Part shown: in pieces, positions 5,295 to 44,663 of the stretch
How positions within the stretch are numbered: position 1 is the first letter of the stretch
Layout: each line of letters starts with the position of its first letter
From: Fimbriimonadaceae bacterium
GTDB taxonomy: Bacteria; Armatimonadota; Fimbriimonadia; Fimbriimonadales; Fimbriimonadaceae
Direction: 5' to 3'
Assembly: GCA_024710805.1 (NCBI GenBank)
Contig: JANJUB010000181.1
Span: forward strand, 1-48,599
DNA length: 48,599 bases
Notes under the pieces: model-generated
Told to the model about the DNA's origin: nothing
The model's input: only the letters and a program-made list of their open reading frames with translations
Database searches by the model: none
Translations under genes and position numbers: made by a program

Positions 5295-5957
5295 TTACGG
5301 CGTTCCGGGTTGGGGAGGATCGTAGGCGAAGGTCTTGACAACCTGCTCGATGATCTTCTCGGTTTCGGCCTGAGCCTCGGGTGCGCTTCCGAAACTGAGC
5401 GTGATCTGCTCTTGGCCTCGGACGAACATGTGAATCTGGGCGATGTACTTCACGGGCGCGCCCGATGTGGTCGGCTGCTCCATCTCTGCGACAAGCACCG
5501 CCCGGGTCGGGTTGTTCACAATCCCCGATTCGATCACGGTGCCCGCCGTCTTCAGCTGATTGAGGTTCTCTTTGAGAATCACGTTGATGTCTGCCGTGGG
5601 GACGGGCATCACGTTGACGTTGACGTTCGTTTGGAACACGCCGGGCTTAACGGGCGCGAATCCGACGATGCGGAACACACCCGTGCTCGCGAACATTCGA
5701 ATCTGCTGCTTGAGCTGCTCGCCTTCGGCTCCGGTTACCCCGAGGTGTTCGACGGCCTGGGTGACGTCAGGCTTGCTGACATCCACCGCAACCCAGTCGG
5801 AGGGCAGCGCCATCGAGACACCGCCCCCTTTCGCAACTTTCCACCCTTGCGGGATAGCCGACTCATTAACCTTCGTTGGCGGAGGCGTGGCGGCCTTGTC
5901 CTTTGAACAACCGCAAATCGCCAACACCAGGATGGCTAGTCCTAAACTCTGCTTCAT
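5295..5957 (-). CDS. Lipoprotein of unknown function
   Basis: A 220-residue protein from the ATG at 5957. An in-frame ATG at 5990 exists but would overlap the upstream gene by 20 bases. The N-terminus MKQSLGLAILVLAICGCSK has a lipobox (LAIC or ICGC, with Cys near residue 15-17), predicting lipidation and membrane anchoring after Lgt/Lsp processing. The body has a KVAKGGGVSMALPSDWVAV segment followed by alternating strands and a C-terminal helix EKIIEQVVKTFAYDPP. This is the layout of PsbP/LpqN-like domains, which open with a 'hydrophobic-LPxxW' strand. That resemblance is an inference. It lies between the SPFH gene and the secreted protease on the same strand. Confidence 0.8.
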   Translation of the reverse strand: MKQSLGLAILVLAICGCSKDKAATPPPTKVNESAIPQGWKVAKGGGVSMALPSDWVAVDVSKPDVTQAVEHLGVTGAEGEQLKQQIRMFASTGVFRIVGFAPVKPGVFQTNVNVNVMPVPTADINVILKENLNQLKTAGTVIESGIVNNPTRAVLVAEMEQPTTSGAPVKYIAQIHMFVRGQEQITLSFGSAPEAQAETEKIIEQVVKTFAYDPPQPGTP

Positions 5958-5970
5958 CTTCGCTAGGATA

Positions 5971-6876
5971 TCACCGATTGACATTTGCATCCTTCATGAT
6001 GCTGCTCAGATCGATCATGAACTGGCTGCCACCCGAAGCTACGCTCGGCAGTTTGCCGTCCCATTTCTCGATCCACTCGCGGGCGATAACGAGTCCACCG
6101 CCGTTCACCTTCAGGGCTTCCGCGTTCAGCTTCGCCGCTTCCGCCGTACCCTTGGCACGGGCGACTTCGGTTTGCTTTTGAAGTTCGGCCTGTTGGAGCA
6201 CGTACTTCTGCTTCTCGGCTTCCTGCTGAGCGACCTGCTTGGCTTCGATCGCCTTGTTGAACTCTGGCGAGAAGTCGAAGTTCACGATCGAAAGGCCGGA
6301 AGGATCGACAATGATGTTGTACGAGCCCAGCCGTCGGATGATCTCGGTTTCGACTTCGGTCTTGACCTGCGCTCGGCTGCGGATCAGCTCCTCCGCGGTA
6401 TAGCGTGCGGTGACGACCTTGAGCGACTCCTGCACGGTCGGATCGATGACTCGTTGCTTGTACAGCAAGCCGACGGATCCATAGACCTCGTCGACCTTTC
6501 CGGGCGCAAGCCGGAAATTGAGGGCAAGCGTGGTCGTGACAATCTGAAGGTCGCGACTTGCAGCGGTCGCCTGCGACTCTTCCTTTTGCGTTCGTGTTTC
6601 CATCAGCTCGACGCGATGAACACCTGGAATGACGATATGGATCCCCGGGTTCATCGTGCCGTCCAAGGCACCGAAGCGCAAGCGGACTCCCTCGTATCCC
6701 GCAGGAACTTGCACGACCCCGCTCCAGAGCACTCCGCCGACGACCATGAAAACGCCCAGCATTCGGGCGGCCCAGGCCATCGGCTTTAGATTCACCGTCT
6801 CGCTCGTTTGCTTGTTCAGACCCGAGAGCATGAACGACAAGACAATGATGACAACCCCAAGAAAAACCGCTAACAT
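5971..6876 (-). CDS. Prohibitin-family SPFH/Band 7 membrane protein
   Basis: A 301-residue protein with two N-terminal hydrophobic segments (about residues 1-18 and 35-55). An SPFH domain follows, opening with VPAGYEGVRLRFGALDGTMNPGIH and including the diagnostic GIHIVIPGVHRVELMETRTQ. The C-terminal third is a long Ala/Glu/Lys/Gln coiled coil (about 205-265: KAIEAKQVAQQEAEKQKY and onward). Prohibitins form large membrane rings and often partner FtsH-type or other membrane proteases. Its same-strand neighbours, a lipoprotein and a secreted metalloprotease, fit an envelope quality-control context, though co-function is inferred. The start ATG at 6876 has GGAGG about 13 bases upstream, rather far. 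Another start cannot be excluded. Confidence 0.92.
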   Translation of the reverse strand: MLAVFLGVVIIVLSFMLSGLNKQTSETVNLKPMAWAARMLGVFMVVGGVLWSGVVQVPAGYEGVRLRFGALDGTMNPGIHIVIPGVHRVELMETRTQKEESQATAASRDLQIVTTTLALNFRLAPGKVDEVYGSVGLLYKQRVIDPTVQESLKVVTARYTAEELIRSRAQVKTEVETEIIRRLGSYNIIVDPSGLSIVNFDFSPEFNKAIEAKQVAQQEAEKQKYVLQQAELQKQTEVARAKGTAEAAKLNAEALKVNGGGLVIAREWIEKWDGKLPSVASGGSQFMIDLSSIMKDANVNR

Positions 6877-35221: not shown

Positions 35222-35959
35222 TTAGTTTCGACCGCGGATAGCTGTGGCGACGATCTCAAGATCGTCGATCGGGCGCTCGCCAATGAGCAGGAAGGATCGG
35301 TTGCCTTCCGACCATCCGACTGCGTTCGTGCCATTCAGCTTGCAGATCGAGAAGCCGCGCTTCGTTGTGGACTCGGCATCGGTAATGCGCTGCACATCTT
35401 CCATAAGGAAGAAGGCCATGGTGCCGATCGAGTCGACAAGGTTGACACGGACCATCTTATGGCCGTTGATCATGCCCGAAGCACCGCCAATGACCTGGAC
35501 CGACTCCGGCTGCGCGGGCATGGGGCCGTTCATCACGCCCTCCAGCCACTTGCGCTGGTCGTCCGGTGCCTGAGAGCGCGGGGCCGCGAACGGAATGAGG
35601 GTGCTCGATGCCCGGGCCACATCGCCCGTGGACATGCTGGCTCCGCCCATGCGGTTCATCGAGGCCGCCATCATGATGGTAACGACGAAGACGGAGCAAA
35701 GGCCCCAGGCGTAACGCCCCACGAACGACTCGACCCGGCGGGTGCGCTCGATCTCTTTAAGTCGTCCTTGGCAGCGTCGCCACGTGTCTTCGCAGGTGAT
35801 CGGGGCGCACTTCGACTGAAGGGTTTCGCGCAGCCCCTGCACGGCTCGGAACTCAGCTTGTGACCGCTCGCACTCACGAAGCCGCGCCTCGGCGGCGGTG
35901 CGATCTTCGCCATCGAGCTGCCCATCGGCAAGTGCGTGGATGTCTAGATAGTCGCTCAT
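35222..35959 (-). CDS. Membrane-anchored anti-sigma factor
   Basis: A 245-residue protein. The cytoplasmic N-terminal part (MSDYLDIHALADGQLDGEDR, then AEARLRECERSQAEFRAV) matches the first helices of RseA/ChrR-type anti-sigma domains: 'ALADGQLD' followed by 'A-x-R-L-x-x-C'. The zinc-binding HxxxCxxC motif is not present. A transmembrane helix at about 84-101 follows. The external part of about 140 residues contains IGGASGMINGHKMVRVNL and GFSICKLNGTNAVGWSEG, a small sensory domain. Its ATG overlaps the sigma stop by four bases (ATGA), and the pair is co-translated. Confidence 0.9.
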   Translation of the reverse strand: MSDYLDIHALADGQLDGEDRTAAEARLRECERSQAEFRAVQGLRETLQSKCAPITCEDTWRRCQGRLKEIERTRRVESFVGRYAWGLCSVFVVTIMMAASMNRMGGASMSTGDVARASSTLIPFAAPRSQAPDDQRKWLEGVMNGPMPAQPESVQVIGGASGMINGHKMVRVNLVDSIGTMAFFLMEDVQRITDAESTTKRGFSICKLNGTNAVGWSEGNRSFLLIGERPIDDLEIVATAIRGRN

Positions 35960-36522
35960 TCGTCGACCTCGGCGGCAGATACGTAACCTTCTCGCATAGC
36001 GTATTCCTTCAGCATTCGGCGCAGAAGTGCTCGTCCCCGAGCGAGCCGCGAACGAACCGTGCCGATCGGCACGCCCGTCGCATCGGCGATTTCCTGATAG
36101 CTCATGCCTTCGAGGTCGCTGAGAACCACGGCGATTCGGAAGTCGTCAGGCACTTTGCCCAAAGCTTCTTCCACTTCGCCGCCCAACAGACCGTCGAACA
36201 GCAAGCGGTCAGGAACGTCGCCCTCGTCGGCCACGGGTTCCGCCATGCCTTCCTCGTCGATCGAGGAGAGCGATGGCCCCCGTTGCCGTTGCCGATAGCG
36301 GTTGATGTAGAGGTTCGTGACGATCCTCAAGATCCACGCCTTGAAGTTCGCGCCATCGAACCGATCAAACGCCTCGTACGCTCGGACAATCGCTTCTTGC
36401 GCTAGATCTTCAGCCTCTTCTCGCGACCTCGTGAGTCGCAAGGCGGTGCCGAAGACCGAGGGAAACACTTTCTCCGCTTGCTTTTCGAACGCGTCTTTGG
36501 AGGTGCGTTTCCCGAAGAGCAT
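35956..36522 (-). CDS. ECF-type RNA polymerase sigma-70 factor
   Basis: A 188-residue sigma factor with only regions 2 and 4. VFGTALRLTRSREEAEDLAQ (2.1/2.2), AIVRAYEAFDRF and AWILRIVTNLYINRYRQRQR (2.4) are typical of SigE/RpoE-like factors. LSDLEGMSYQEIADATGVPI with IGTVRSRLARGRALLRRML (4.2 helix-turn-helix) is typical too. It directs a stress regulon and is held at the membrane by the next gene. A TACACT hexamer lies nine bases before the ATG, which may be its own recognised promoter. A divergent 379-base region leads to the pilus operon. Confidence 0.95.
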   Translation of the reverse strand: MLFGKRTSKDAFEKQAEKVFPSVFGTALRLTRSREEAEDLAQEAIVRAYEAFDRFDGANFKAWILRIVTNLYINRYRQRQRGPSLSSIDEEGMAEPVADEGDVPDRLLFDGLLGGEVEEALGKVPDDFRIAVVLSDLEGMSYQEIADATGVPIGTVRSRLARGRALLRRMLKEYAMREGYVSAAEVDE

Positions 36523-36901
36523 GGCGGGGGCAGTGTACCCCTCGCTAGGTTCAACCTCTCCCGATTCGCCGAAGTTCCCAGGGGTTACCAGGTTTTGCTG
36601 GCGCTAGGATTTGCTCGGATGGCACGGTTGGCTCGGGTTCGATCCGACTGGTTCGGCTGAGCTCGGGCACCGTCGCTGCGGGATTGACCGCCGCCGAGGA
36701 AGGATTCCCCCATCGTCGGCTGTCGACCTACGGGCGTCTGCCGCTGGTGCCGCTCCCCCGTAAATCCCTATGGGAGGTGGCGCGAAGGGCATGGCATAGG
36801 GCTAACCGGGTTGCGCCGCGCCGAACATTGAAGGATCACCTGAGGTTTTGGCCCGATTTGCCCGAAAACATACCAGGGCTTGACCCGAGGAACGAAACGC
36901 A
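36523..36901. other. 379-base intergenic region between the sigma gene and the pilus operon
   Basis: No convincing gene. Short open frames here are not supported by codon bias or ribosome sites. It must hold the promoters of both divergent operons. On the minus strand TACACT (36532-36537) is the sigma -10 candidate. On the plus strand no good -35/-10 pair is visible. GAGGAACG at 36886-36893 is the ribosome site of the first pilus gene. I see no known riboswitch; the GC-rich 5' leader could fold, but I cannot name a structure. Confidence 0.6.
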
Positions 36902-37738
36902 ATGCATGAGGCCTATTGGGGACTAAATGAACCGCCATTCAGTTTAACGCCAGATCCGCGCTTTCTTTTTATGAGCCGGTCGCACGAGGATGCACTCATG
37001 ATGTTGCACTACGCGATCACGCGCAACAAGGGTGCGGCGATGCTGAGCGGCGACATCGGGCTGGGCAAAACGACGATCAGCCGAAAGCTCCTAGAGTTGC
37101 TCGATCCCATTCGGTTCCGGGTCGTGTTGATCGTAAATCCGATCCTCACTCCGGTCCAGATGCTTCAGGAGATTCTGGCGCAGCTCGACGTGCACGTCGC
37201 CTCCCGAAACCGGCAGGTGCTCGTGCAAGAGCTCCACAACGCGCTGGTTCACTACTATGAGCGTGGGCAGCGAGTGGTGCTTGTCGTCGATGAAGCCCAT
37301 TTGATCCGATCGGCCAACACGCTCGAGGAACTGCGGTTGCTGCTGAACTGCCAGATGAATGACCAGTTCCTCATCAGCCTGCTGCTGCTCGGCCAGAAGG
37401 AACTCAAGCCCAAGATTGCTAAGGTCCCGGCGTTGGAGCAGCGTATGGCGGTTCGGCACACGCTTCAGCCGCTCGATTCGGCCGACGTAACGGCCATGAT
37501 CCTCCACCGGCTTCGCGTGGCTGGATTCACGGGCGAGAGCCATCCGTTCACGCCCGACGCCCTGCACGAGATTCACAAGTTCAGCCACGGCTACCCTCGC
37601 GTGATCTGCCAAGTCGCCGATAACGCGCTTCTGATCGGCATGGCGAAGAAGGTGAAGATGATCGACGGCTATCTGATGCACGACGTGCTTTGTGAATACT
37701 CCGGGGTCGAGGAACTGACTCCGAGGAAGGCAGCATGA
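36902..37738 (+). CDS. ExeA/GspA-like AAA+ ATPase
   Basis: A 278-residue AAA+ protein of the general secretion ExeA type. MHEAYWGLNEPPFSLTPDPR is the typical N-terminus ('Y-W-G-L-x-x-x-P-F-x-x-x-P-D-P'). SGDIGLGKTTISRKL near residue 50 is the Walker A loop. RVVLVVDEAHLI near 125 is Walker B, and VPALEQRMAVRHTLQPL gives the sensor/Arg-finger region. In Gram-negatives ExeA with ExeB helps insert secretin through peptidoglycan. Here no ExeB-like or peptidoglycan-binding domain follows, so it may place PilQ alone. First gene of the pilus operon; overlaps the HTH gene by four bases. Confidence 0.92.
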   Translation: MHEAYWGLNEPPFSLTPDPRFLFMSRSHEDALMMLHYAITRNKGAAMLSGDIGLGKTTISRKLLELLDPIRFRVVLIVNPILTPVQMLQEILAQLDVHVASRNRQVLVQELHNALVHYYERGQRVVLVVDEAHLIRSANTLEELRLLLNCQMNDQFLISLLLLGQKELKPKIAKVPALEQRMAVRHTLQPLDSADVTAMILHRLRVAGFTGESHPFTPDALHEIHKFSHGYPRVICQVADNALLIGMAKKVKMIDGYLMHDVLCEYSGVEELTPRKAA

Positions 37739-38214
37739 ACCTCGCCGATGCCATCCGCCGCGCCAGCATGGCTCCGACCCCAATGGCGACGCCACTGCCG
37801 AGCGCCTTGGCCTGGGATGAACAAGCGTTCCCAGAGGCCCAAGCACCTCAGCCGGTCGGCGTGCCCGAGAACTTTGTTCCCCAATCAACCTACACCGAAG
37901 AGGCAATCATGTCGAACGATCCGACCCCCGATCTCACCGAGGCTCCGGCGCAAGCCGGTACCGCCGTCCGGCTGGAGATGTTCTTGACGCCTGAGCAGCT
38001 CAGCTCGCTCTTCCGGGCGGTCGCCGCGAATCAACACACGCTGCTTACCGCACGCGAAGCGGCCAGCTACCTGCGCGTGACGGCGGCGACCCTCGAGACC
38101 ATGGCAACCGAGGGCGAGGTTCCTGGATTTCTCGTCGACGGTCGCTGGCGCTTTAGCAAGCAGGCGATCGACGAGTGGCTTGTCCAACAAACGCACGTGA
38201 AGGAGGCGGCATAA
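37735..38214 (+). CDS. Excisionase-type helix-turn-helix protein inside the pilus operon
   Basis: A 159-residue protein. The first 90 residues are Pro/Ala-rich and likely disordered (SMAPTPMATPLPSALAWDEQ). The C-terminal 60 form an excisionase/MerR-like HTH of the 'HTH_17' kind: LLTAREAASYLRVTAATLET, then EGEVPGFLVDGRWRFSKQAI and DEWLVQQ. Such domains bind DNA, but the gene sits between ExeA-like and pilM with four-base overlap on one side and two bases on the other. It could autoregulate pili, or have lost DNA binding. Its position inside a structural pilus operon is odd. Confidence 0.82.
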   Translation: MNLADAIRRASMAPTPMATPLPSALAWDEQAFPEAQAPQPVGVPENFVPQSTYTEEAIMSNDPTPDLTEAPAQAGTAVRLEMFLTPEQLSSLFRAVAANQHTLLTAREAASYLRVTAATLETMATEGEVPGFLVDGRWRFSKQAIDEWLVQQTHVKEAA

Positions 38215-38216
38215 CG

Positions 38217-39305
38217 ATGGGACTCAATCCATTTAAGAAACCGAGCTATGTCGGCATCGACATTGGCCACCACGCCATCAAGGCGGTTCAGATCGACCGA
38301 GCCGGTCAAGGCTGGAAGATCTCGCGGGTCGGCTGGGTCCGCACCCCCGAAGACTCCGTCAAGGAAGGCGTCGTCGTCGACGCGCCGGCGGTTGCGGCCG
38401 CGATTCGCCAGGTGATGCGTGAGTCGCACATGGCCGCCACAGCAGCTTGCATCGCGGTTGCCGGCGGTTCCGTGGTGGTGCGCAACGTGCGCATCCCCAA
38501 GATGCCGGAAGCCACACTGCGGAAGTCGATCAAGTACGAAGCGGGACGCTACGTTCCCAGCTCGGTCGAGGACAGCTACATCGAGTTCGAGATCGTGGGC
38601 GAAGCCGACGACAATCAGATGGACGTTCTGATTGTGGCGGCGCCCAAGGAGATCGTCGAGAGCCGGATCAAGGCCTGTGAATCCGCCGGGCTCGAAGTCG
38701 AAGTGGTCGACGTCGAGGCCTTTGCGTCGTATCGATGCCTCCTCGAAAGTGATCCGTCGAACGCCTACCAGGGCCAGACGATCGCGATCGTCGACATCGG
38801 CGGATCGACGACCAGCATGAGCGTGATCAGCCAGGGCACTTTTGCCATGGCGCGTTCGTTGTCTCAAGGCGGCCAAACGTGGACCGATGCGCTGAAGAAC
38901 TACTTCCGATTGAGCGAAGACGATGCCGAGTCGGGGAAAGCCCAACTCGACTTGTCGGAGCTGGCGGCTGATGGAGCTCCGAAGGAGAATCCGCCGCTGC
39001 GGGTGGTTCAGCCGCTGATCGATGACCTCATCCGCGAGGTTCGCCGATCGCTCAACTACTTCCAGTCGCAGGCGCAGGAAGGCACCGGTGGCCGAGCGGT
39101 CGATACGGTCGTGCTATCCGGTGGAGCCGCAAAGCTGCCCGGACTGGCCGAGTACTTCGCCCACAAGCTTGGGATTCCCACAGTCAGCTTGGGCGCCCTC
39201 GATAACGTTCGATTCTCATTTGCCGGGCCTGGCGAGGCCGGCCATGGCCTTGACTTGGCGGTCGCATCCGGTTTGGCGATGCGCCCGTCGGTGAAGGCCG
39301 CCTAG
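38217..39305 (+). CDS. pilM: Type IV pilus assembly protein PilM
   Basis: A 362-residue actin-like ATPase from ATG 38217, with AAGGAGGCGGC upstream. YVGIDIGHHAIKAVQIDR and IAIVDIGGSTTSMSVISQ are the two phosphate loops. VVRNVRIPKMPEATLRKSIK and YEAGRYVPSSVEDSYIEFEI are the PilM blocks. VLSGGAAKLPGLAEYFAHKL is the adenosine loop. PilM sits on the inner face of the cytoplasmic membrane and binds the PilN tail. Downstream of it lie pilN, pilO, pilP-like and pilQ in order. Confidence 0.96.
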   Translation: MGLNPFKKPSYVGIDIGHHAIKAVQIDRAGQGWKISRVGWVRTPEDSVKEGVVVDAPAVAAAIRQVMRESHMAATAACIAVAGGSVVVRNVRIPKMPEATLRKSIKYEAGRYVPSSVEDSYIEFEIVGEADDNQMDVLIVAAPKEIVESRIKACESAGLEVEVVDVEAFASYRCLLESDPSNAYQGQTIAIVDIGGSTTSMSVISQGTFAMARSLSQGGQTWTDALKNYFRLSEDDAESGKAQLDLSELAADGAPKENPPLRVVQPLIDDLIREVRRSLNYFQSQAQEGTGGRAVDTVVLSGGAAKLPGLAEYFAHKLGIPTVSLGALDNVRFSFAGPGEAGHGLDLAVASGLAMRPSVKAA

Positions 39306-39318
39306 GGAGAAAGATGTC

Positions 39319-39924
39319 ATGCCGTTGATCAACTTAATTCAAGACCAACGCCTGGCCGCCAAGAAGAGCGAGCGAGCTGCTCGGGTGTTCTTCATGTCGT
39401 TCGCGGCAGTGTCCACCCTTTCGGTTCTCTCGTTCGGCTTCCTGCTGGTGCTTAAGGAGACCGCCGAAAACGAAGCGTCGGATCTCCGAGTGAAAGCCCA
39501 ACAGGTTCAGCCGATCTTGGATGAGGTCGAGGCTACCAACAGCGAGTACAGCAAGCTGGCTCCGCGGGTGACGACCCTGACTGGCGCGCAGGAAACCAGC
39601 ACCCGCTGGAACCGCGTTCTGGCTCACCTCGCCGTTCACACCCCAACCGAGACTTGGCTGACGACGATGCGGGCCATGCAGACCGACGTCAAGAAGCCGG
39701 TTGCGCTCACCTTCTTGGGCTTGAGCAAGCGGCAGGAGCTCGTCGGCGAGTTCATCCTGCGGCTCCAAGGTTCGACCGACCTTGCGAACGTGGGCTTGAA
39801 GTACACCCAAGAAAAGCCTGCTCAAGCCGGCAGCCAGATCGAGTTTGAAGTGAATGCCGAACTCGAAGGAACGGTCGAGGAGCAAGATCGCAATGAGACC
39901 AAGAAGGAGGGGACATCGGCATGA
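39319..39924 (+). CDS. pilN: Type IV pilus assembly protein PilN
   Basis: A 201-residue bitopic inner-membrane protein. MPLINLIQDQRLAAKKSERA is the PilM-binding cytoplasmic tail, with the conserved INL motif. One membrane helix follows at about 24-46. A coiled-coil region and then a ferredoxin-like periplasmic domain follow (HTPTETWLTTMRAMQTD; FLGLSKRQELVGEFILRLQ). PilN and PilO form the alignment subcomplex that links PilM to PilP and PilQ. The start of pilO overlaps its stop by four bases. Confidence 0.92.
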   Translation: MPLINLIQDQRLAAKKSERAARVFFMSFAAVSTLSVLSFGFLLVLKETAENEASDLRVKAQQVQPILDEVEATNSEYSKLAPRVTTLTGAQETSTRWNRVLAHLAVHTPTETWLTTMRAMQTDVKKPVALTFLGLSKRQELVGEFILRLQGSTDLANVGLKYTQEKPAQAGSQIEFEVNAELEGTVEEQDRNETKKEGTSA

Positions 39925-40604
39925 AAGGCCCAAATCCTAAGATCTTTCTCGTGCTGACGATTCTGACCCTGGTTGCGGGGTCGGGTCTGTCGTACATGCA
40001 GTACACGGGATACAACGACGCTAAGGCGGACATCGAGAAGCTCAAGGCGGAAGCAAAGGACCAGGGAGAAGTCGAGCGCGAGCTTCAAGAAGCCATCGAT
40101 CGCTTGAACGACACCCGGGGCAAACTGGTCCACCTGGAGCAGAGCGTTGCCGAGATGGCGTACGTGCCTACCCTCCTAAAGGAGTTGGAAAACCTGGGCA
40201 CTCAGTGCGGCATCAAGGTGACCGGCGTTCGGCCTGTGCCGAAGCAGGCGACCGCGCCGGCAGCGGCGAAAGACGAAAATGGCGAGACGGCCAAGAAAGC
40301 GCGAAAGCCCTACAATGAGCTCGACATCGAGGTCAAGGGCCGCGGCAACTATCAGGCGGTCACCAAGTTCATCACCGGCCTGACGACGTTCCCCAAGATC
40401 GTCGCGGCCCGAACGGTCTCGCTTCAGCCGAAGCTGGACCCCCGAAATCCTGCGGCTAAGCCAGCCCTCGATGTGACCATCGAACTGCGCAGCTTCTTGT
40501 TCCCGGCCGATGGCTCGACGCCAAAGGTCAGCGACGACGGCGAGAAGGTAGCACCCAAGTCCATCAACCTGAGCGGCCGCACTCCCAAGCTGGAGGGCAA
40601 CTAA
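39921..40604 (+). CDS. pilO: Type IV pilus assembly protein PilO
   Basis: A 227-residue bitopic protein: short cytoplasmic tail, one membrane helix (FLVLTILTLVAGSGLSYM), a coiled coil (AKADIEKLKAEAKDQGEV, LQEAIDRLNDTRGKLVHLEQ) and a periplasmic domain containing VPTLLKELENLGTQCGIKVT. Then follow the typical PilO strand-helix GRGNYQAVTKFITGLTTFPK. It pairs with PilN. The next start overlaps its stop by one base (TAATG). Confidence 0.92.
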   Translation: MKGPNPKIFLVLTILTLVAGSGLSYMQYTGYNDAKADIEKLKAEAKDQGEVERELQEAIDRLNDTRGKLVHLEQSVAEMAYVPTLLKELENLGTQCGIKVTGVRPVPKQATAPAAAKDENGETAKKARKPYNELDIEVKGRGNYQAVTKFITGLTTFPKIVAARTVSLQPKLDPRNPAAKPALDVTIELRSFLFPADGSTPKVSDDGEKVAPKSINLSGRTPKLEGN

Positions 40605-41302
40605 TGGACGACAAGAAGAAGTTGGTCATTCTCGGCAGCCTGTTCCTGGTCATCATCGCGGTTGGCGCATTTCAGTTCTCCAAGGGCGGTGGGTCAGAGG
40701 TTCCGGCCGAGCCGGTGGCTAAGTCGAAGGAAGCGAGTACAGACACCGAATCCACCGTCGCTTCGAAGACCGAGGATGCTGAATCGGAGAACACCGAGGA
40801 AGGACAGACCGGAGAGGGCGTCGATCCGGCGTTGATCGCCGCGGCTCGCCTCAACCCGCGTGACCCGTTTGATGGCGCGGCTTGGGATGCCAATCGCGTG
40901 CCCGCTCAAGTGACTCCAGTCGCACCGCCTCAGCCGCGAGTAGCGCCGCCGATGCGCCCGACCTCGATGGGTGGATCAGGCTTCAAACCCATCCCGATCG
41001 GTGAGGGTGCGCTGCCGACTCCCGAGGGAAGTTCGACGCCAATTACAGGTGGGAAACTGCCCAGTATCGAAGACTTCCCGTACACTGTAGCAGGAACCAT
41101 GGTGGGAGACCGCCCTTGTGTGCTGCTTACGGATTCAACTGGTAAACAGAAACTGGTAAATGTAGGGGGCTCCATCGACGGCGACAGCCAGGTGGTTTCA
41201 GTTTCGAAGGGCGCGGTCACCGTGAGACATCGCGGCAAGACCAAGACCTTCCGAGTGAGTGGGATGAATCCCAGCAATAACAAGTACGAGGACAAGCAAT
41301 GA
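40604..41302 (+). CDS. PilP-like pilus assembly protein
   Basis: A 232-residue protein in the pilP position. It has an N-terminal membrane helix (KLVILGSLFLVIIAVGAFQF) in place of the usual PilP lipobox. A Glu/Ser/Thr-rich linker follows (about 30-75), then a Pro-rich stretch. The C-terminal domain has DFPYTVAGTMVGDRPCVLLT and VNVGGSIDGDSQVVSVSKGA, the beta-sandwich HR domain of PilP/GspC. ARLNPRDPFDGAAWD is the conserved 'R-D-P-F' block just before it. It should bridge PilNO to the PilQ N-domains. The bitopic membrane anchor makes it intermediate between PilP and GspC. Confidence 0.85.
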   Translation: MDDKKKLVILGSLFLVIIAVGAFQFSKGGGSEVPAEPVAKSKEASTDTESTVASKTEDAESENTEEGQTGEGVDPALIAAARLNPRDPFDGAAWDANRVPAQVTPVAPPQPRVAPPMRPTSMGGSGFKPIPIGEGALPTPEGSSTPITGGKLPSIEDFPYTVAGTMVGDRPCVLLTDSTGKQKLVNVGGSIDGDSQVVSVSKGAVTVRHRGKTKTFRVSGMNPSNNKYEDKQ

Positions 41303-44019
41303 AGAAAGCTTTACTCGGCAGCTCGCTGATGGTGCTTGCGGCCTTAGCGACTGCCCAAGGAAAGCTGACCGACGTCCAATGGACGAAGGGCAGCAACGGA
41401 CTGAAGGTCGAGGTTTCGGGCGAGAACCTGACCCAGCCCAAGATTATCCGCGCAATGGGCGGAAAGTCTTACATGCTGGAGTTCTCCGCTCACCTCATGG
41501 GCAAGGCGAAGCGCGAAGTCGTCAACACCGCTGGTGTCGACTACGTGCACACCGTCTGGTTCACTGCGAAACCGCCGAAAGTGCGGGTTCATGTGAAACT
41601 GAACGATCCTCTGGCCGACGTACGACTCGCAAAGTCGGCGGGCGGTTGGACGGTCTCAGTCGCCCAAGCTGTGTCGGCGGCCTCGAAAGCGGCAGCCAAG
41701 TCTGACTCGGACGCTGCGCTTTGGGAGTTGCCCAAGCTCGTTCCGCTAAAGAAGCCAGAGACGGACGATACTAAGTCCGCCACAACCGGGCCGAAGAGCG
41801 CATCGGACGATCCAGCTTCGACGATCGGCAAGATTGAGCTCCCGGGCGAGACGACAGTCGCGTCGTTGCTCGGTCCCAAGCCGCTCGCGGATGGCGACCC
41901 CTACGAGAAGAAACAGACGCCTAAGACGGCTCCGAAGGCGGCCCCCAAGCCGCTGCGGATTCACGAGCCAGCCAAGACAACGCCGCTTCCGACCGGAGGC
42001 ACGCAGCGTCAGCGTACGGTCACGCTCGACATGGTGAATGCCGATGTCGTGCAGATCCTCAAGGCTCTGGCGATGCAGGCGGGCGTCAATATCGTGACGT
42101 CGCCCGAAGTCAAGGGCACGCTTACGGTGTCGCTGACCAACGTCTCCGTCGAGGAAGCGTTGAATCTGGTGACCACGTTGGCGGGCGTCAAGTACGCCAA
42201 GAGTGGCTCGACCTACGTCGTCGCCGCTAGTGCCGAGCGACTGAAGAGCTTCCCGAAGATCGAGGATGGCGCGGAAACCCGCGTCGTGCCGATCTACTCG
42301 GGCGAAGGAACCCAGATCAAAGCCGCGGTGCTTAAGGTTGTCCCGATGGACGGCTCGCGTGGCAGCTTCGAAGTGGTTCTGCCCTCGGAGGAGATCAGCG
42401 TCGAGCAGACGAGCGCCGTTGGTGCCTCGGGCGGCGATGCCAAGACCGGTGGCGCCACTGGCGAGACCACGACCGTCGAACAGCGAACCGGAGCCAAAGG
42501 TGCGAAGGACTCGTATCTCGTGCTGATCGGACCGAAGTCGCAACTCGACATCCTCGAGAAGACGGTCAAGACGATCGATGCTCAGATCTGCGGCGCGCTT
42601 GGTATCGACGTTCCGACGTCGAGCGCAATCGTGCGCAGTGTGTACAACCCACGCGGCACGTCGGCAGTCCAGTTGCTGCAAACGGTCGCCGGGTCGAAGT
42701 ACGACAAGAGCTCGCCCTACTCGGCAAAGGTCGGCAGCGTCGAGATCATCGCCACTCCCGAGCGCACGATTGGTGAGCAGACGCTGACCATGCGCGGTCG
42801 AGAGCACGAAGTCGCGGACCTGATTCTCACGCTGCAGGCGCTTGATTCAGTAGCTGGCGGCGAGGGCGAGTATGTCCTTTACGAGGTCAAGTATCTGGAT
42901 CCGCGCGCTGTCCGTGATGATCTGATCAATCAGTTCCCTGGGCTCCAGGTGACGATTCTGCCGGGAGCGGTAGCCAATCCTGGTCTGACACCAGACGCCG
43001 GTCAGCAAGCTGCTCAGGCGGCGAATGGCCAGGGCGCAAATGCGGGAGCGGGTGCGGCTGGCGTCGTTGGACAGCAAGGCGGCCAAACGGGCGGATCTGG
43101 TGAACTGCTCGAGCCTGACAAGGGCGAAGTCGCGGGCATCGCGCTTCCGTTCCGGAAGTTCGAACCGTTCGCGTATCCGATGAAGATCATGCTGCGTGGC
43201 AGCAAGTCGAAGATCGAAGGGGCCAAGCAGTACCTTCAAACGATCGACGTTGCCCCGAAGCAGGTGGCGATCGAGCTCCGCGTCATGGATCTCCGCAAGG
43301 AAGATGCCCAGAAGGTCGGACTTGATTGGAACATCCTCACCGGTGGAACGGTGCGGACGATTCGGGTCAACCAGGGAGTTGGCGGCTCTGCCGGCGCGCC
43401 TGGGAACATCAGCGGATCGCTCGGTTTTGCGGGCGGTGCGGTGGCGAACATCCTTGGCACCCTCGATGACATTGCCAACGACACGAACCTGATCGCCCGT
43501 CCCAACCTCATGGGTGTGGATGGACGTCAGAGTGAGATCTTCGTCGGCGACATCATCCGATACATCGAAAGCATCCAGGCGTCGCAGAACGGTACGACCA
43601 TCACCTCGAAAGAGCTACCGGTCGGCGTCCGTCTCGCGATCCTGCCTCGCATCGGCGGCGACGGTCAGATCACTCTCGACCTTCGACCGGTCGTGAGCAC
43701 GCTCACCGGCTTTACCACGGTACCGGGTGGCGGAAACCTTCCGCAAACCAGTCTGCGGGTTGCCCAGAGCACGATGAGCATCAAGAGTGGCGAGACGATC
43801 GCCATCGGCGGTCTGATTCAAGACTCGGACACGATCACGAACAGCGGAATCCCGATCCTCAAGGATCTGCCGATCATCGGCAAGTTGTTCTCGCGATCGG
43901 AGAAGACGAAGAGGCGCAGCGAGATTGTCCTGTTCCTCACGGCGAGAGTCGTGGACGAGAACCGCAAGGGCGATGAAGCCCAGCCGAAGCGCGAGGATCC
44001 GAAGCGTATCGGCGGCTAG
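41299..44019 (+). CDS. pilQ: Type IV pilus secretin PilQ
   Basis: A 906-residue outer-membrane secretin. Signal peptide at the N-terminus (LLGSSLMVLAALATAQG). An AMIN domain follows (about 22-130; KSYMLEFSAHLMGKAKREVV). An STN/N0 domain comes at about 230-310 (VTLDMVNADVVQILKALAMQ), with N-type repeats around 390-540. Then the secretin core (ELRVMDLRKEDAQKVGLDWN to SGETIAIGGLIQDS and GIPILKDLPIIGKLFSR). A Gly/Ala/Gln-rich insertion (GQGANAGAGAAGVVGQQGG) lies near 575-605, before the core. It forms the pilus exit pore. Its ATG overlaps the PilP-like stop by four bases. A terminator follows. Confidence 0.96.
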   Translation: MKKALLGSSLMVLAALATAQGKLTDVQWTKGSNGLKVEVSGENLTQPKIIRAMGGKSYMLEFSAHLMGKAKREVVNTAGVDYVHTVWFTAKPPKVRVHVKLNDPLADVRLAKSAGGWTVSVAQAVSAASKAAAKSDSDAALWELPKLVPLKKPETDDTKSATTGPKSASDDPASTIGKIELPGETTVASLLGPKPLADGDPYEKKQTPKTAPKAAPKPLRIHEPAKTTPLPTGGTQRQRTVTLDMVNADVVQILKALAMQAGVNIVTSPEVKGTLTVSLTNVSVEEALNLVTTLAGVKYAKSGSTYVVAASAERLKSFPKIEDGAETRVVPIYSGEGTQIKAAVLKVVPMDGSRGSFEVVLPSEEISVEQTSAVGASGGDAKTGGATGETTTVEQRTGAKGAKDSYLVLIGPKSQLDILEKTVKTIDAQICGALGIDVPTSSAIVRSVYNPRGTSAVQLLQTVAGSKYDKSSPYSAKVGSVEIIATPERTIGEQTLTMRGREHEVADLILTLQALDSVAGGEGEYVLYEVKYLDPRAVRDDLINQFPGLQVTILPGAVANPGLTPDAGQQAAQAANGQGANAGAGAAGVVGQQGGQTGGSGELLEPDKGEVAGIALPFRKFEPFAYPMKIMLRGSKSKIEGAKQYLQTIDVAPKQVAIELRVMDLRKEDAQKVGLDWNILTGGTVRTIRVNQGVGGSAGAPGNISGSLGFAGGAVANILGTLDDIANDTNLIARPNLMGVDGRQSEIFVGDIIRYIESIQASQNGTTITSKELPVGVRLAILPRIGGDGQITLDLRPVVSTLTGFTTVPGGGNLPQTSLRVAQSTMSIKSGETIAIGGLIQDSDTITNSGIPILKDLPIIGKLFSRSEKTKRRSEIVLFLTARVVDENRKGDEAQPKREDPKRIGG

Positions 44020-44088: not shown

Positions 44089-44643
44089 TTACCGGCGATT
44101 TCGTCGTCGAGCCAAGGCCGCGACGCCGAGGCCAAGAGCCGCGAGGGTCGCGGGCTCAGGAACCGGGGCGGCGGAGAAGTTGTCCCAGACCACCGAGTTC
44201 GGATTCGAAGTGGCAGTTGTCGTTCCGATGACGTAAGCGATGTTTGCCCCCGTCACGGTCAACGAAGCAAAGCCCGAACTCATGCCGTAGTTGTATGACT
44301 GAGTGTCAACCAGAGCATCGGCTGCGTTGTACGCACGAAGGATGACGAAGCCGTCGTCATCGACACCGTTGTCACCGAACATTGCGGATACCGAGGTCAT
44401 CGGAGCCGAAAAGTCCACGCGGGTCGGAAGCCAAGCTCCACTCGCGCCACCGGCGACGACCGGCGAACCCTGCCAAGCAAGAACGGTGATGTTGCCGCCC
44501 ACACCCGTGGCCGTCGCGGTATAGCCGCTGACCGTCTGGGAGACGGACGAATACGAGCCGTTCGAGGCATTGTTGAAATCAAACAGCACAGCCATCGAAG
44601 CTGCCGGAACCAAGCCCAATCCTAATAGTAGTAGTTTCTTCAC
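44089..44643 (-). CDS. PEP-CTERM sorting-signal protein
   Basis: A 184-residue exported protein. GTG 44643 is chosen as the start because AGGAG lies eight bases upstream; it gives a signal peptide KKLLLLGLGLVPAASMA. The body is Ser/Thr/Gly-rich and beta-type (NNASNGSYSSVSQTVSGYTA), with LRAYNAADALVDTQSYNYG resembling a small lectin-like or Ig-type fold. The C-terminus VPEPATLAALGLGVAALARR plus the final RNRR is a textbook PEP-CTERM tripartite signal. It is recognised by an exosortase (EpsH family), which is not in the window. It is a probable surface or biofilm matrix protein. Confidence 0.92.
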   Translation of the reverse strand: MKKLLLLGLGLVPAASMAVLFDFNNASNGSYSSVSQTVSGYTATATGVGGNITVLAWQGSPVVAGGASGAWLPTRVDFSAPMTSVSAMFGDNGVDDDGFVILRAYNAADALVDTQSYNYGMSSGFASLTVTGANIAYVIGTTTATSNPNSVVWDNFSAAPVPEPATLAALGLGVAALARRRNRR

Positions 44644-44663
44644 CTGTCCACTCCTCAAGCCCC

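Follow-up and report, generated by a model that had tools for sequence, protein, structure and literature searches.

A conserved ATPase and helix-turn-helix protein pair heads a type IV pilus operon in the Fimbriimonadaceae and their relatives

Layout of the operon and anatomy of its two leading proteins

We analysed a 48,599-nucleotide stretch of DNA from a Fimbriimonadaceae bacterium (contig JANJUB010000181.1 of assembly GCA_024710805.1; hereafter the window), which carries a type IV pilus operon headed by genes for an ExeA-type ATPase and a helix-turn-helix (HTH) protein. The window is contig C102 of our genome G000, an assembly of 3.25 Mb in 207 contigs. An earlier, sequence-only reading had proposed the gene order ExeA-like, HTH, pilM, pilN, pilO, PilP-like and pilQ. 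All seven genes were found in that order on one strand, with family matches for all but the PilP-like protein (Table 1), and PilM, PilN, PilO and the secretin stand in the order expected of a type IV pilus alignment complex (pilMNOPQ). The same reading was slightly generous in letting nearly all the genes overlap by 1-4 bases: this holds for four of the six junctions, whereas a 2-base gap separates HTH from pilM and a 13-base gap pilM from pilN. For pilM, the ATG start at 38217 was preferred over a GTG lying within the HTH gene. The secretin scores under the cut-offs of the GspD, PilQ and MshL models alike, and a Pfam scan of the PilP-like protein gave no match. As described below, the ATPase and the HTH protein form a real module that is kept across the order at the head of this operon.

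The ATPase has an AAA_22 domain with Walker A and Walker B motifs; the Walker A G/K/T residues and D130 were invariant in 45 aligned rows. It is MshM-like rather than GspA proper, since it has only 278 residues, consists of an AAA+ domain alone and shows neither a clear membrane span nor a peptidoglycan-binding domain. The latter was absent both from a Pfam scan and from the structural model, which holds only an AAA+ domain (mean pLDDT 91.5) and whose nearest folds are Orc/Cdc6, MuB and TnsC. A PDB profile search with ExeA returned no match, and BLASTP against E. coli K-12 GspA gave nothing significant. In a 19-residue hydropathy scan, the best mean was 1.55 for ExeA and 0.71 for the HTH protein, with no clear membrane span in either, and 2.0-2.5 for the pilN, pilO and PilP-like products. 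The sole NCBIfam match of ExeA, nearly full length, was TIGR03015 (XrtA/PEP-CTERM-associated ATPase) at 200.5 bits against a cut-off of 324.5. We therefore rejected this identity, despite the presence of a gene for a protein with a PEP-CTERM sorting signal directly after the secretin gene on the opposite strand.

The HTH protein was previously described as having a disordered N-terminus of 90 residues. This description fits residues ~13-75, a variable linker modelled with low confidence, but not the parts on either side, namely a conserved N-terminal helix, MNLADAIRRA (residues 1-12), and a conserved stretch containing a helix (76-102), after which comes a winged HTH_17 domain (103-159). Identity to the nearest relative follows the same division: 11/12 in residues 1-12, 46/63 in 13-75, 27/27 in 76-102 and 52/57 in 103-159. 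In the structure model the helices span residues 3-12 and 86-98, and the winged HTH, at 103-158, is confident. Across relatives the N-terminal motif reads M-N-[LF]-A-D-A-I-R, with variations. The C-terminal domain is of the HTH_17/excisionase type (42 bits against a Pfam cut-off of 27). When the HTH model was searched with Foldseek, the RdfS excisionase ranked best (E 0.01), followed by BldC, and no match had an E below 0.001. No T2SSB (HR) domain of the GspB/ExeB kind was detected in the protein by Pfam. A search of the genome gave none either, but its controls were equally silent, so that it says little on the rest of the genome.

Table 1. Genes and features of the pilus operon and its borders (window coordinates)
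Feature	Coordinates	Strand	Evidence
Putative anti-sigma factor	35222..35959	-	position; overlaps sigma factor gene; no Pfam match
Extracytoplasmic function (ECF)-type sigma factor, divergent	35956..36522	-	
Conserved promoter block TGAGGTTT-N12-CCCGAAAA, then TACCAGGG; sigma-28 (FliA)-like; 24-61 bases before ExeA start	36841..36878	+	word enrichment, FliA scoring, weight-matrix scan
ExeA/MshM-type AAA+ ATPase, 278 residues; Walker A GDIGLGKTT, Walker B VVDEAH	36902..37738	+	AAA_22 PF13401 2.1e-21
HTH protein, 159 residues	37735..38214	+	HTH_17 1.2e-10; TIGR01764 excise; start overlaps ExeA stop by 4 bases
pilM	38217..39305	+	PilM_2 PF11104 4.2e-62; TIGR01175 over cut-off
pilN, N-terminal hydrophobic span	39319..39924	+	PF05137; hydropathy
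pilO, N-terminal hydrophobic span	39921..40604	+	PF04350; hydropathy
PilP/GspC-like protein, N-terminal hydrophobic span	40604..41302	+	weak NF041515 GspC match 1.1e-4, below cut-off; hydropathy; position
Secretin (PilQ/MshL/GspD-type), 906 residues	41299..44019	+	Secretin PF00263 3.5e-38
PEP-CTERM sorting-signal protein	44089..44658	-	

Distribution of the HTH gene and the ATPase gene

The window proteins were used as queries against 85 family genomes, with matches accepted up to an E of 0.001 for the HTH protein, 1e-40 for pilM and 1e-25 for ExeA. Some of these genomes are incomplete drafts, so that single absences are weak (G041, for example, is 78 percent complete). The HTH gene was found in 58 genomes, pilM of the operon type in 70 and ExeA in 61. 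Every one of the 58 HTH genomes has ExeA, and 58 of the 61 ExeA genomes have the HTH gene. In 56 of the 58 the HTH gene sits between ExeA and pilM (its position in G036 was taken from match coordinates rather than from a BLAST of the locus), and in the other two, G039 and G042, ExeA and the HTH gene lie together away from pilM; these two belong to one genus and may represent one event. Nine genomes have pilM but no ExeA (G011, G012, G014, G017, G019, G024, G025, G040 and G041), and the HTH gene is missing from all of them. When these nine genomes were searched with a profile of 47 HTH proteins (10 of the 57 available rows had been dropped as close relatives or N-containing), still no HTH gene came up.

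The two genes are also coupled at the level of their sequence. In 55 of 56 loci ExeA and the HTH gene overlap by 4 bases, which hold both the ExeA stop and a start codon of the HTH gene (ATG in 46, GTG in 7 and TTG in 2). The N-terminal motif likewise begins at the overlapping start in 55 of 56 loci, the exception beginning two codons later. Seven ExeA columns appeared specific to HTH-bearing genomes, against a null mean of 0.3 (maximum 6); we made no use of them, as the ExeA proteins of the three HTH-less genomes are simply more divergent.

Beyond the family, the HTH profile matches 82 of 113 genomes of the order, and the arrangement ExeA-HTH-pilM was present in 14/14 loci read, out of 24 matching order genomes outside the family. 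Record titles point to Fimbriimonadales (Armatimonadota) as the order concerned. Relatives of the HTH protein were counted in 50 named loci, of which 22 are titled Fimbriimonas or Fimbriimonad-, 16 Armatimonad-, 7 Chthonomonas or Chthonomonadaceae, 4 "bacterium" and 1 archaeon, a count made with a strict N-terminal pattern that says nothing on absence elsewhere. One locus, L139 (JADZEW010000018.1), is a bacterial pilus operon on a contig filed as "Methanoregulaceae archaeon isolate SJ84", a record title that looks wrong. Outside the order, the profile gave one full-length match beside ExeA, in G170, where pilM, in the same orientation, lies further downstream; an HTH_17 protein beside ExeA in G168 (locus L225) was not among the profile matches and was found through its gene neighbourhood. 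The sequence-only reading had asked whether relatives keep the HTH gene in this position and would have been undone by a gene confined to this strain or placed outside the operon in relatives; the gene proved instead to occur across the order and to be kept in place. A strain-specific insertion of an excisionase was rejected for the same reason.

On a PilM tree of 69 genomes, built by a quick method (G050, whose whole pilM was not fetched, was left out) and on which gain and loss are not separable, there were at least three changes in the presence of ExeA and at least five in that of the HTH gene. The HTH gene changed in the same direction as ExeA in all three independent contrasts, a number too small to reach significance (p 0.25).

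Charge of the DNA-contact face and the promoter block

HTH_17 proteins commonly bind DNA. For comparison with the HTH core of the 47 profile rows, we took 40 further HTH_17 domains from the phylum, out of the 66 other matches listed for the same profile. The resulting contrast should be conservative, because sampling by the same profile favours domains that resemble the family. The recognition helix and wing have a mean net charge of -0.60 in the family and +4.68 in the other domains (Mann-Whitney p 1.6e-15, which is optimistic, the rows being related), and the whole HTH core has a mean charge of -0.74 versus +3.38. At wing column 120, all 40 other domains have K or R, whereas the five commonest residues among the 47 family rows are L (16), Q (6), E (6), K (5) and V (4). 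Columns 122-123 are D (37) and G (43) in the 47 family rows, and G (37) and R (25) or K (7) in the 40 others; column 108 is E in 26 of the 47, and Y (16) or R (11) in the 40. Recognition helix and wing in this family thus lack most of the net positive charge that marks a DNA-binding excisionase or regulator. In family f2 the wing K/R is absent from all six proteins read, with charge sums of -3 to 0. The G170 HTH protein has a charge of +1 and retains the wing K, and the G168 protein is strongly basic (+6).

These data bear on the idea that the HTH protein regulates genes elsewhere and merely shares the ExeA transcript. The DNA binding usual for its domain class would favour such a role. The low charge of its DNA-contact face, the conserved 4-base coupling to ExeA, the joint absence of the two genes and their joint displacement all speak against it, and we regard it as the least probable of the explanations considered here.

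A second possibility, in which the HTH protein acts as an ordinary transcription regulator of the pilus genes and binds upstream of ExeA, directs attention to a promoter block that the sequence-only reading had not mentioned and that is conserved across much of the family. As read across relatives it is approximately TNAGGTTT and, 11-12 bases on, CCCGATAA, with TACYGGG after that, a little ahead of the ribosome-binding site. The 7-mer AAAACCT occurs in 23 of 42 upstream regions against 1.8 expected, and the most frequent word of 60 shuffled sets came to 10. The consensus of FliA (sigma-28) is TAAAGTTT-N11-GCCGATAA. Against this consensus, the best site per region averaged 11.8 of 16 matches, versus 9.3 in shuffles (55 regions). 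By hand count, 30 of the 55 regions beat all 40 of their own shuffles and 25 did not; some of the best sites (e.g. in L090) are not the block, and the spacing in the FliA-like sites is mostly 12 rather than 11. No sigma-70 promoter was found in 36400-37000, and the only matches to known RNA elements upstream were microRNA families below their gathering scores, which we took as chance. An inverted repeat, ACCGGGTC and then GACCGGAG, lies over the likely ribosome-binding site at 36873-36901 of the window and in many relatives, and might form a hairpin or serve as an operator.

A weight matrix of the block was built from 36 of 49 HTH-bearing upstream regions, the other 13 having been missed by the anchor pattern. 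Upstream of pilM in the nine genomes that lack both genes of the pair, the block beat all 60 shuffles in six (G012, G014, G017, G019, G024 and G041); the misses were G040 (1/60 shuffles as good), G011 (2/60) and G025 (11/60). The -10-like part deviates from CCGATA in the g6 genomes. The block also lies upstream of pilM in both genomes with a displaced pair, again beating all 60 shuffles, and upstream of ExeA in 3/3 of the ExeA genomes without the HTH gene (out of register in G051). Upstream of the displaced ExeA itself there was no sign of it in G039, where 34/60 shuffles scored as well, and hardly any in G042 (score -3.2, 1/60). Since it is kept before pilM in the absence of the pair and is poor before displaced ExeA, the block belongs with the pil operon rather than with the HTH gene. 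Its retention in six of nine genomes that lack both genes makes it an unlikely operator for the HTH protein. A local regulator would agree with a fold nearest to excisionase and BldC-type DNA-binding proteins, with so strongly conserved an upstream element and with several basic residues kept in the HTH domain. Given that this element follows the pil genes and resembles a sigma-28 promoter, and that the DNA-contact face is without net positive charge, we consider control of the operon by its own HTH protein unlikely, although this is still the best placed of the rival explanations.

The likeness to sigma-28 sites suggests that transcription of the pilus operon may be driven by a FliA-type sigma factor and that the operon may belong to a flagellar-type sigma regulon. 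A FliA/WhiG-type sigma factor scores over the curated cut-off in 80 of the 85 family genomes and FHIPEP/FlhA is present in 68, the window's genome being included in both counts; the notion of a sigma-28 kept without flagella was accordingly rejected. If the assignment is right, such a promoter would link the assembly of pili to the regulon of the flagellum. The genome report of Fimbriimonas ginsengisoli mentions PilB, C, D, Q and M and one fliA, with pili likely serving attachment (PMC4072686), and pilA of a cyanobacterium is described as SigF-dependent, which gives pili under a group 3 sigma factor a precedent (PMC6495340). In genus g6 (G007-G026), the nine genomes without operon-type pilM are also without FHIPEP/FlhA and the 11 with pilM have FlhA, as if pilus operon and flagellum had been lost together. 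Elsewhere, FlhA occurs without operon-type pilM in six genomes (G059, G060, G066-G068 and G074).

A possible adaptor role and comparison with known systems

The sequence-only reading had left the choice between a DNA-linked regulator and an HTH re-used for protein contact. We favour the latter, because of the low charge of the DNA-contact face, the retention of the block in six of nine genomes without the genes and the co-occurrence of the HTH protein with ExeA rather than pilM. Taking conservation and joint displacement into account as well, our favoured explanation, to which we give about an even chance, is that ExeA and the HTH protein form a cytosolic module of the pilus machine in which the HTH protein is an adaptor partner of ExeA and not the regulator of the operon. 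The ATPase would act like MshM or the ATPase domain of GspA, aiding assembly of the secretin-alignment complex, as its family suggests. The conserved N-terminal helix of the HTH protein probably docks on the ATPase, the flexible linker would give reach, and the conserved stretch together with the winged HTH may dock on a protein of the pilus platform. PilM would be the simplest such partner, because it is encoded next and is cytosolic. The canonical DNA-contact face, short of its usual basic residues, would then serve protein docking.

The association of ExeA with type IV pili is already known, and the earlier statement went too far in calling ExeA non-standard for an operon with a pilus secretin. 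In Vibrio cholerae the MSHA pilus operon includes a gene for MshM, an ExeA homologue with 43/57 percent identity/similarity, and, as here, encodes the ATPase together with PilN/PilO-type proteins and a type IV pilus secretin; as described there, however, mshM comes after the secretin gene mshL and before the tetratricopeptide repeat gene mshN (PMC4624765). In the window operon the ATPase gene leads, the HTH gene is next and there is no MshN-like gene. The GspA-GspB (ExeA-ExeB) pair similarly couples an AAA+ ATPase to a small partner gene in the service of a secretin, and in the type II secretion system the ATPase domain of ExeA is reported to be needed for complex formation with ExeB (PMC4098917). 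Unlike GspA-GspB, the window ExeA has no clear membrane span or peptidoglycan-binding domain, and its partner is a cytosolic HTH protein whereas GspB has a periplasmic HR domain; a GspA without its periplasmic part is described from Alteromonas (PMC9239104). The XrtA/PEP-CTERM ATPases of TIGR03015 differ in that the window ExeA scores below their cut-off and sits in a pilus operon. With the excisionase/HTH_17 family and BldC the HTH protein shares its fold and core motif, but not the usual positive charge of recognition helix and wing, and it has in addition the long linker and N-terminal helix. What is new here is the pairing of ATPase and HTH protein in one module and the possible control of the operon by sigma-28. 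No paper on the pair was among the matches listed in a literature search that covered few subscription papers. In the few papers seen, the part that ExeA/MshM-type ATPases play in building type IV pili is unsettled, and hardly any of the cytosolic proteins they work with are known. An adaptor that accompanies the ATPase across an order, moves with it when it is displaced and is missing from some relatives offers a small, testable two-protein system and, if the explanation is right, an instructive example of a winged HTH that has exchanged DNA contact for protein contact within the operon of a machine.

Several observations weigh against this explanation, beginning with the small number of contrasts on the PilM tree. 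Three genomes (G022, G051 and G052) keep ExeA directly before pilM without the HTH gene, the two genes overlapping or being separated by at most 66 bases; ExeA thus does not strictly need the HTH protein. Even the ATPase may be dispensable, since in V. cholerae deletion of mshM left surface production of MSHA pili unreduced (PMC4624765). The thought that the N-terminal motif is the cytosolic motif of GspB was rejected for E. coli K-12 GspB, in which it is not present. Finally, the HTH protein could still bind DNA, as it keeps arginines or lysines at columns 101 (R in 47/47), 126 (R in 47/47), 129 (K/R in 46/47) and 124 (K/R in 40/47), and often at column 94, where R is a gain in 37 of the 47 family rows. 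Family f3, moreover, keeps the wing K/R in five of six proteins read, with charge sums of -1 to +3.

In a further explanation, the pair would connect the machine of the pilus, or just its ATPase, with DNA for nucleoid anchoring or DNA uptake, as a DNA-associated AAA+/adaptor cassette recruited to the operon. The folds nearest to ExeA are those of DNA-handling AAA+ proteins. In MuB and TnsC-TniQ, an AAA+ protein is paired with an HTH partner. The ATPase fold and the pairing are common to ExeA and these systems, but the pilus operon has no transposase. The ExeA-like loci in other classes of the phylum bear on the same question. Of 25 ExeA-like matches (E up to 1e-30) outside the order and G170, 21 loci were read. 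In 19 of them a short open reading frame (115-199 residues) starts -59 to +73 bases from the ExeA stop; of the other two, L229 ends at a contig edge and L226 has only a 60-residue frame. Among the 19 partners, that of L225 has an HTH_17 domain over the cut-off, three (L219, L220 and L222) have weak support for an Arc-, ParD- or RelB-type domain, ten look like ribbon-helix-helix proteins by eye alone and five have no recognised domain, the scan having covered L224 and L227 among them. A ParA-like gene, Pfam-tested in L224, comes next in four of these five loci (L191, L223, L224 and L228).

The label "ribbon-helix-helix partners", given by eye to 13 of the 19, did not stand: a Pfam scan of 11 of them (without L214 and L216) supports only L219, L220 and L222 (E 0.001-0.057), below curated cut-offs, and PDB profile searches of the partner proteins gave no ribbon-helix-helix match. 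Nor is the N-terminal motif common to all Armatimonadota ExeA partners, being significant against shuffles in one of 14 tested (G170, p 0.005). With these results and the low DNA-contact charge in the family, a link of the pair to DNA seems to us a slim prospect, somewhat behind local regulation of the operon. The partners of the other classes are nevertheless a lead, not a result, for a broader and equally speculative proposal: the ExeA-type ATPases of Armatimonadota might be AAA+/adaptor cassettes with a swapped C-terminal domain, winged HTH or ribbon-helix-helix, which in Fimbriimonadales would have been recruited to the pilus operon, its HTH turned to contact with a pilus protein and the operon placed under a flagellar-type sigma factor. 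The logic of such a cassette is akin to that of the MuB/TnsC or ParG-type DNA systems.

Some further features of these loci were noted. L191 (G145), L223, L224 and L228, from another class, encode an ExeA-like ATPase, then a small protein whose N-terminus is of the KLDELFADEPYLS type, then a ParA-like ATPase, and L191 has a nearby HTH_17-type protein (5415-6077) with a similar N-terminus. In L218, L219 and L222 the ExeA-like and small partner genes adjoin genes for proteins like phage replication protein O; the Pfam match exceeds its cut-off in L219 and has an E of 0.1 in L218, and in L222 the resemblance was judged by eye only. In the window's own genome, two more loci (L107 and L108, on contigs C182 and C186) carry diverged PilM and secretin relatives with T2SSE (PilB/GspE-type) ATPases. 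The divergent pair of ECF-type sigma factor and putative anti-sigma factor genes upstream of the window operon adjoins it, among the relatives' loci read, only in the nearest relative, L036.

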